Below are positions 7,334-24,884 of a stretch of 33,618 bases of DNA, piece by piece; position 1 is the first letter of the stretch, and every line of letters begins with the position of its first letter. The stretch comes from an uncultured Pelagibacteraceae bacterium. GTDB taxonomy: Bacteria; Pseudomonadota; Alphaproteobacteria; Pelagibacterales; Pelagibacteraceae. The notes under the pieces are model-generated. The model made no database searches, was not told where the DNA came from, and saw only the letters and a list, made by a program, of their open reading frames with translations. Both the position numbers and the translations under genes were made by a program. Where the stretch lies: contig CABZRN010000007.1 of NCBI GenBank assembly GCA_902528175.1, positions 1-33,618 on the forward strand, read 5' to 3'.

Positions 7334-7350
7334 TTTATAATAATTCTAAA
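7334..7350. promoter_or_regulatory. Irr operator (ICE-box) candidate over the katG -10
   Basis: The plus strand reads TTTATAA-TAA-TTCTAAA. The Irr iron-control element, as I recall it, is TTTAGAA-N3-TTCTAAA, so this differs at one of 14 positions. It covers the second half of the spacer and all of the -10 of the katG promoter, a position expected to block RNA polymerase. The binding protein is inferred from the irr gene 45 bases away. Confidence 0.72.
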
Positions 7351-7362
7351 TAAATTTGTCAA
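7334..7362 (-). promoter_or_regulatory. katG promoter
   Basis: On the minus strand a TTGACA -35 (7362-7357) is followed by 17 bases and a TATAAA -10 (7339-7334). That is a near-perfect sigma-70 promoter. Transcription should start around 7327, just before the AAGGAG at 7326-7321, giving a very short leader. Such a strong promoter fits a gene that is normally held repressed. Confidence 0.8.
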
Positions 7363-7365
7363 CAG

Positions 7366-7382
7366 TTTAGAACAGTTATAAT
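7366..7382. promoter_or_regulatory. Second ICE-like site upstream of the katG -35
   Basis: The plus strand reads TTTAGAA-CAG-TTATAAT, with one perfect half-site and two mismatches in the other half relative to TTTAGAA-N3-TTCTAAA. It begins 4 bases upstream of the katG -35. Its core is an exact inverted copy (17 bases, 7364-7380) of the site upstream of irr at 7821-7837. Confidence 0.6.
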
Positions 7383-7819: not shown

Positions 7820-7852
7820 TTTATAACTGTTCTAAACTAAATCTATATTATA
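7820..7852. promoter_or_regulatory. irr-fabA intergenic control region with ICE-like site
   Basis: Bases 7820-7836 read TTTATAA-CTG-TTCTAAA, one mismatch from the recalled Irr consensus. On the minus strand a TATAAT lies at 7852-7847, which puts an irr transcription start near 7840 and the site immediately downstream of it. On the plus strand a TATATT at 7844-7849 could serve fabA, in which case the same site would overlap its -35 region. No good -35 hexamer is visible for either direction, so the exact promoters are uncertain. The operator is the firmer part. Confidence 0.62.
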
Positions 7853-7886: not shown

Positions 7887-8387
7887 ATGAAAAAAAGCTC
7901 ATACACTTACGACGATTTAATCAGTTGTGCTAATGGAGATCTTTTTGGTCCAGGTAACGCAAAATTGCCTGCACCTCCTATGTTGATGTTTGATAGAATC
8001 ACAGAAATTAGTGAAAACAAAGGTGAATTTGGCAAAGGATTTATTGTTGCTGAATTAGATATAAAAGATAGTCTATGGTTTTTTGACTGTCATTTTAAAA
8101 AAGATCCTGTAATGCCAGGATGCCTTGGATTAGATGCTATGTGGCAGCTTGTAGGATTTTATTTAGGATGGCTAGGAAATCCTGGAAGAGGAAGAGCTCT
8201 GGGAGTTAACACGGTAAAGTTTACTGGCGAAGTTCTTAAAAATGTCAAAAAAGCAGTTTATGAGATTAATATGAAAAGAGTTCTTATAAAAGAAGGCACT
8301 ACTGTCGGTTTAGCTAATGGAATATTGCTCGCAGATGGCAAAAAAATTTACTCAACAGAAAATTTAAAAGTAGGTTTATTTATATAA
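7887..8387 (+). CDS. fabA: 3-hydroxydecanoyl-ACP dehydratase/isomerase
   Basis: FabA dehydrates beta-hydroxyacyl-ACP and isomerises trans-2-decenoyl-ACP to the cis-3 form, the branch point to unsaturated fatty acids. The catalytic His 69 lies in [14 protein letters not shown] and the catalytic Asp 83 in [11 protein letters not shown], both as in E. coli FabA. The bulk of the protein is the family core ([10 protein letters not shown]). The length of 166 residues suits FabA and is longer than FabZ. A start at the ATG 7887 is supported by AAGGA about 9 bases upstream. Its stop overlaps the fabB start by one base. Confidence 0.97.
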
Positions 8388-24458: not shown

Positions 24459-24884
24459 TTAATCAGATTTATCTTTTATACAGTAAAGTTCTAATTTTGA
24501 GTCCACTAGTTTGTATCCATGTTTTTCAGCAATTTTTTTTTGAATGATTTCAATTTCATCACTAGTAAATTCAATTATATTCCCTGTTTTTATATCGATT
24601 AGGTGATTATGGTCATCATTTAATTCATACCTGGCTTTACCATCTTTAAAATCGTGTTTCATTAAAATACCTGACTCTTCAAATAGTTTCACTGTTCTAT
24701 AAACTGTTGCGATACTAATTTTGCTATCAATATCTGAAACTCTTTTGTAGAGCTCATCCACATCTGGATGATCTGACTCACCATAGTTTTTTTTTGACTC
24801 GGATATAACCCTGGCTATAGTTCTCCTCTGATCAGTTAACTTAACACCTTTTGCAATACACTTTTGTTCGATTGTATCTGTCAT
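24459..24884 (-). CDS. fur: Fur/Mur-family metal regulator
   Basis: This is a ferric-uptake-regulator family protein of 141 residues. The winged-helix reads SIATVYRTVKLFEESGIL and the dimerisation/metal region ARYELNDDHNHLIDIKTGNIIEF. The two CxxC zinc pairs of classical Fur are missing, as is usual in alphaproteobacterial Fur/Mur, where the protein often senses manganese. It is clearly different from the Irr at 7395-7814. Its place before miaB is conserved. Whether it responds to iron or manganese cannot be read from the sequence. Confidence 0.93.
   Translation of the reverse strand: MTDTIEQKCIAKGVKLTDQRRTIARVISESKKNYGESDHPDVDELYKRVSDIDSKISIATVYRTVKLFEESGILMKHDFKDGKARYELNDDHNHLIDIKTGNIIEFTSDEIEIIQKKIAEKHGYKLVDSKLELYCIKDKSD

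Follow-up and report, generated by a model that had tools for sequence, protein, structure and literature searches.

A putative Irr operator overlapping the -10 element of the katG promoter in Pelagibacteraceae

The window, by which we mean the whole 33,618-nucleotide stretch of DNA that we analysed, belongs to an uncultured Pelagibacteraceae bacterium and carries a catalase-peroxidase gene, katG, next to a gene for a Fur-family regulator of the Irr type (Table 1). That it is SAR11 also fits its gene content, the genome size and the existence of numerous small related genomes. Read along the minus strand, irr is followed after 78 bases by katG, and katG is followed by a gene for a hydroxylase-domain protein. 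The start of fabA lies 72 bases from irr on the opposite strand, with more fatty-acid genes behind it. A search of 90 family loci found a relative of fabA, the usual neighbour of the irr-katG pair, in 84. A relative of the hydroxylase-domain gene follows katG in 29 of 30 loci (L003-L032).

Table 1. Genes and promoter features around katG in the window
Feature	Position	Strand	Basis or remark
katG, catalase-peroxidase, 744 aa	5082..7316	-	NCBIfam TIGR00198 1138 bits (cut-off 770), NF011635 1223 bits (cut-off 981)
irr, Irr-type Fur-family regulator, 139 aa	7395..7814	-	Pfam FUR, NCBIfam IrrA best, HHHH motif, tree grouping
fabA, divergent from irr	7887..8387	+	Pfam FabA 151 bits
Aspartyl/asparaginyl beta-hydroxylase-domain protein, 203 aa	4467..5078	-	3 bases after katG
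Fur/Mur-like protein	24459-24884		weighed as an alternative regulator
-35 hexamer TTGACA	7357..7362	-	read directly
-10 hexamer TATAAA, within ICE 1	7334..7339	-	read directly
ICE 1, proposed Irr operator over -10 and spacer	7334..7350	-	one mismatch
ICE 2, second, weaker Irr box	7366..7382	-	two mismatches; lies 32 bases further upstream than ICE 1
ICE 3, Irr box in the irr/fabA gap	7820..7836		one mismatch

The katG promoter, which the original prediction described as near consensus, can be read directly on the minus strand: the TTGACA and TATAAA hexamers are separated by a spacer of 17 bases (7356-7340). For scoring Irr boxes (ICE) we used the consensus TTTAGAANNNTTCTAAA, TTTAGAA and TTCTAAA around three free positions, which we take to be the rhizobial Irr box. 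ICE 1, TTTAGAATTATTATAAA, deviates from this consensus at one position and spans the whole -10 hexamer plus 11 of the 17 spacer bases. Its sole deviation, A for C (TTATAAA versus TTCTAAA), lies within the -10 hexamer. Dinucleotide shuffling of the 140 bases that precede katG produced a match this good, with at most one mismatch, in 5 of 5,000 trials. The weaker second box that had been placed above the -35, ICE 2 (ATTATAACTGTTCTAAA), is present with two mismatches, but it ends 3 bases above the hexamer and not 4.

The predicted product of irr (P0001) matches the Pfam FUR model at 76 bits (cut-off 23.1). Against NCBIfam it reaches 132.4 of the 150 bits needed for IrrA and 120.2 of 170 for Irr, the best non-Irr family reaches 59 bits, and PerR and Fur models give 59 bits or less. 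Since the naming cut-offs are missed, we call the protein Irr-type, by its nearest relatives, its motif and its neighbours. Under the same check, the Irr proteins of two relatives score 124 (L051) and 149 bits (L103), and all eight class relatives scanned pass the IrrA cut-off. A tree from which one of 30 class rows was left out for length, and which included no PerR sequence, split 43 Irr-type rows from two Fur rows with support of 100/100 and placed the protein with the former. The HHH of the HxH haem-binding motif shows no variation among the 14 family Irr proteins compared. Together with a later Asp, it is also found in most of 30 wider-class Irr-type proteins, so it does not mark a special branch. 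Excerpts from PMC7762939 describe the role of HxH in haem binding by Irr. According to the same excerpts, haem binding makes the Irr of Rhizobium leguminosarum release DNA, and in Bradyrhizobium haem at a regulatory motif triggers degradation of the protein. The Cys-Pro haem regulatory motif is absent from all 14 family Irr sequences, and by these motifs the family Irr resembles the R. leguminosarum type more closely than the Bradyrhizobium type. Two wider-class Irr-type proteins (L327 and L333) have a GCPVHDL stretch that resembles the haem regulatory motif and is absent from the SAR11-like Irr. A single-sequence structure prediction for Irr had a mean pLDDT of 54, too poor for use.

We then considered how the palindrome fares in relatives. 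In a family survey, 208 of 297 genomes carry katG. We read the upstream DNA of 106 of these 208, a sample made up of the best-scoring genomes and a hand-picked part of the rest, and thus not random; one locus, L053, was dropped (contig end). When the katG upstream regions were scored for ICE, the palindrome proved to be kept, with at most two mismatches, in 84 of the 85 loci, the window included, where irr lies just upstream of katG and the DNA available was long enough. It has one mismatch in 81 of them and two in 3; in the remaining locus (L095, genome G225), the best box is no better than three mismatches. Only 1.7% of 8,500 shuffles of these 85 regions reach two mismatches or fewer. Aligning 62 loci on the box gave 90-100% identity at its 14 fixed positions. 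Selection accounts for part of this, because the boxes used for the alignment had been required to have two mismatches or fewer. Of the three central positions, which are free in the search, two show conservation as well (T in 85% and A in 98% of the 62 loci), and the A by which ICE 1 breaks the consensus is shared by 90%. Conservation drops at the box edges, except for a few bases just downstream.

Such a pattern could in principle reflect a well-kept promoter that no regulator uses, given that the right half of the palindrome is the -10 hexamer, which would be kept regardless, and that alignment on chosen boxes inflates apparent conservation. The left half, TTTAGAA, however, falls within the spacer, a region in which a promoter by itself requires no particular sequence, and its distance from the -35 is variable, with a gap of 4, 5 or 6 bases before the best box in 62 of the 85 loci. 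Moreover, the box has decayed in most irr-less lineages, as described below. A promoter without a regulator is the least credible explanation that we weighed.

The position of the boxes also bears on the direction of control. Because ICE 1 covers the -10, Irr is likely to act on katG as a repressor. Activation from ICE 2, with ICE 1 only tuning expression, would be the reverse arrangement: ICE 2 ends just above the -35, in a position for contact with the polymerase, and excerpts from PMC7762939 report that Irr can act either way, depending on where the ICE lies. Yet paired boxes (two mismatches or fewer each), 30-32 bases or about three helical turns apart, occur in only 19 of the 85 loci, whereas in 64 of the 85 the best ICE has a TTGACA-like hexamer (at most one mismatch) no more than 14 bases ahead of it, which places that box behind the -35. 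Furthermore, Irr would be active at low iron, a poor moment for making more of a haem enzyme. We regard activation as improbable. Three loci (L077, L087 and L088; genomes G014, G190 and G154) carry an extra palindrome, TTGAGAATGATTCTCAA or a close variant, farther upstream than the katG boxes; it may be a terminator for irr or a further operator.

The layout defines a precise candidate operator, for which the natural losses of irr serve as controls. Irr went undetected in 20 katG genomes; an ICE with two mismatches or fewer is present in 4 of these, versus the 84 of 85 irr-adjacent loci. In ten of the 20, katG lies beside fabA, irr is missing from between them, and no Irr was found anywhere in the genome; the best ICE at these ten loci has 1, 2, 2, 3, 3, 4, 4, 5, 5 and 5 mismatches. 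The empty slot was read directly, but nine of these genomes are only 55-86% complete (G001 is 95% complete), so an Irr encoded elsewhere could have escaped detection. In the ten further genomes, katG has no irr beside it and the search for Irr gave Fur-level matches at best; the best ICE has two mismatches once, four in six cases and five in three. The four irr-less loci that keep the box, with one mismatch (L073) or two (L080, L086 and L231), come from genomes that are 74-83% complete. Since the 20 genomes are not independent, we used contrasts on the KatG tree. Of four supported independent contrasts, about three on average ran in the expected direction and none in the opposite one; four pairs are too few for significance (median p 0.25). 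One of the ten loci with an empty slot (L082, G130) retains, between fabA and katG, what appears to be a truncated beginning of irr, interrupted by an early stop.

Losses of irr also bear on whether the palindrome serves a different regulator, for example the Fur/Mur-like protein of the window. Fur-family proteins bind related AT-rich palindromes. In Magnetospirillum, Fur binds the katG promoter, according to excerpts from PMC3251581. Seven of the ten genomes with an empty fabA slot keep a Fur-like protein. However, in five genomes that retain a Fur-like protein and in which no Irr was found (G049, G077, G001, G130 and G073), the palindrome is lost (four or five mismatches), and the palindrome both fits the Irr box and recurs at irr. 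These observations make another Fur-family regulator a very improbable user of the site.

OxyR, the usual peroxide sensor, whose redox cysteines are nine residues apart, is the other regulator to be considered. We inspected 26 LysR-type proteins from 20 family genomes, among them the 62% complete genome of the window, and none has such a cysteine pair. The original prediction of Irr control is supported by the near-universal ICE beside irr, its rarity in the genomes with no detected Irr and the lack of an OxyR candidate in this sample. These data suggest that Irr very probably controls katG through ICE.

Of 20 genus members sampled without katG, 19 retain Irr, which must therefore have targets besides katG. 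In the 763-kb assembly of the window's genome, ICE with at most one mismatch occurs at only two places, 7334-7350 and 7820-7836. The latter box, ICE 3, is a proposed site for autoregulation of irr and possibly also controls fabA. Of 74 family loci, 59 have a box with two mismatches or fewer between irr and fabA. Three katG-less genomes (G017, G026 and G074) carry exact boxes immediately ahead of irr. In eight other loci (L105, L108, L110, L067-L070 and L084), the ICE at katG is kept and no box with two mismatches or fewer is found at irr/fabA. We looked for a large Irr regulon in the window's assembly and saw none: loose ICE matches (three mismatches) number 490 per strand versus 645 in a reversed control and are thus not enriched, so only strong sites carry meaning. 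In 23 genomes that have both irr and katG, exact TTTAGAANNNTTMTAAA occurs at 52 places, of which 23 are at katG, once in every genome, 12 at irr and 17 elsewhere; the overall count, 54 strand matches versus 74 for the reversed motif, is not above the control. Sixteen other strong or exact ICE places were inspected in relatives, and 11 of them lie inside long reading frames. Three perfect ones are intergenic (L138 in G083, L139 in G113 and L140 in G063); the genes following the first two have no Pfam match.

The explanation that we favour is that Irr represses katG from ICE, with a probability of about 0.78, and that haem would relieve the repression. Irr made from the upstream gene would bind ICE 1, hide the -10 from RNA polymerase and so shut katG. 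Where ICE 2 is present, some three helical turns off, another Irr dimer bound there may reinforce repression. When haem is plentiful, Irr would be released and KatG would be made alongside the haem that it needs, probably together with the hydroxylase-domain protein, whose gene is likely to be cotranscribed with katG. Irr probably also binds the irr/fabA gap and limits its own synthesis. Peroxide stress possibly frees ICE of Irr as well. Peroxide defence would then be coupled to haem or iron status via Irr instead of OxyR. The haem part of the proposal comes from the response of known Irr proteins and from the retention of the HxH motif; by this analogy, haem has a little better than an even chance of being the main signal for derepression.

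The putative metal site of the protein may point to a different signal. It also makes less secure the original prediction's view that no dedicated peroxide sensor takes part, as does a third, weakly matching Fur-family protein carried by relatives with Irr. His37, Asp86, His92, His94 and Asp105 are invariant in all 14 family Irr proteins. The structure 2fe3, B. subtilis PerR, is the second-best PDB match for Irr after 5nl9, and all five residues align with residues of 2fe3 that we take to be the regulatory metal ligands of that protein. Irr could therefore be a PerR- or FurA-like metal-based peroxide sensor for katG, with haem mattering little. In line with this, excerpts from PMC2464607 suggest Irr as the functional counterpart of the katG-associated oxidative-stress Fur of actinobacteria. 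On the other hand, the CxxC of the PerR zinc site is missing from all 14 family proteins, the protein matches IrrA far better than any PerR model (132 bits versus at most 59), and HHH with the later Asp is common across Irr-type proteins of the wider class. A purely metal-based sensor seems unlikely to us, and we keep haem-relieved repression as the preferred reading. If it is true, peroxide defence in SAR11, whose cells rank with the most numerous in the ocean, would be gated by the supply of haem and iron, and iron limitation would be tied to peroxide removal.

The family has two main kinds of katG, which are widely separated when 92 KatG proteins are placed on a tree; the second kind is 55-59% identical to that of the window. 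Both occupy the same fabA-irr-katG slot, each with an ICE upstream. Either the structural gene was exchanged under a kept regulator and operator, or a newcomer was brought under the same operator. Promoter and regulator appear to have outlived the gene under them. A broader proposal, which we hold to be doubtful, is that irr-katG with its operator fused to the -10 is an old, self-contained module of alphaproteobacterial peroxide defence: Irr would sense both haem and, through the PerR/FurA-like His/Asp site, peroxide; the module would stand in for OxyR in streamlined lineages, and its operator would have been kept through katG exchange.

Outside the family, we examined 48 of 135 katG-bearing genomes of the class (28 best-scoring and 20 hand-picked, mostly small, and so not a random sample). 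Ten of these 48 katG regions have an ICE with two mismatches or fewer, against 0.3% of shuffles. One has two perfect boxes (L159) and another has one (L165). Seven of the ten ICE-bearing loci measured 56-67% G+C; the upstream DNA of L209 and L213 has only 35-38%. ICE at katG is associated only weakly with Irr across the 48 genomes: it is present in 9 of 34 with an Irr-level match and in 1 of 14 without (G663), and 25 of the 38 box-less genomes have an Irr-level match. The fabA-irr-katG layout is found in three of the 48 (L213 in G507, L204 in G564 and L216 in G642). L213 has two boxes with two mismatches each, and G507 encodes an Irr that scores above the IrrA cut-off (169 bits versus 150); L204 and L216 have no ICE at katG. 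At L209 (G404), a one-mismatch box lies between irr and katG, and no fabA was found in the stretch. Control loci from many phyla were obtained by a profile search of contigs with a KatG alignment: 80 were taken among the matches listed and 3 were dropped for short upstream DNA. None of the remaining 77, of which five are alphaproteobacterial by title and two are titled only Proteobacteria, has an ICE with two mismatches or fewer. The Irr-katG link is not special to SAR11.

Nor is the idea itself new, since PMC2464607 (2008), in the excerpts available, reports that Irr sites upstream of catalase-peroxidase genes had been predicted earlier, citing Rodionov et al. 2006. Those predictions, as cited there, are like ours in placing comparative Irr boxes at alphaproteobacterial catalase-peroxidase genes. 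What is new here is the SAR11 case, in which irr immediately precedes katG, the fusion of the operator with the -10, its fate without irr, and the replacement of katG under the same operator. The literature searched yielded no experiment in which Irr was shown to bind a katG promoter, and a binding study of Brucella Irr does not mention catalase in its main text. Excerpts from the SAR11 literature on iron and katG yielded no statement on what controls SAR11 catalase. They do state that "Ca. Pelagibacter ubique" encodes Fur and Irr, neither of which changes significantly in abundance under iron limitation (Smith et al. 2010, PMC2864753), and that katG is common to most offshore SAR11 genera (PMC12636525).

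Several known systems resemble this locus. The rhizobial Irr/ICE regulon of Bradyrhizobium japonicum and Rhizobium leguminosarum shares the regulator type, the box and the HxH motif; here, in contrast, the target is a katG adjoining irr, and the Cys-Pro motif is absent. An abstract and a reference title report oxidative loss of Bradyrhizobium Irr. In actinobacterial furA-katG pairs, too, a Fur-family gene immediately precedes katG. Their regulator is a member of the actinobacterial oxidative-stress Fur group (excerpts from PMC2464607), whereas here it is Irr-type and is accompanied by ICE. In Rhodobacter sphaeroides, deletion of irr raises katE about 6-fold and increases peroxide resistance (excerpts from PMC3413700). 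According to the same excerpts, katE lacks an Irr box, is not bound by Irr and is under OxyR, unlike the catalase promoter described here, which contains the box. Excerpts on Magnetospirillum name OxyR as a katG regulator (PMC12912731) and link the loss of IrrB in general terms to catalases and peroxidases (PMC5459824). The OxyR-katG systems of alphaproteobacteria are similar in that a regulator gene adjoins katG; in the window, no LysR gene lies beside katG, whereas a LysR gene adjoins katG in three of the five annotated alphaproteobacterial plasmid katG loci that we examined.
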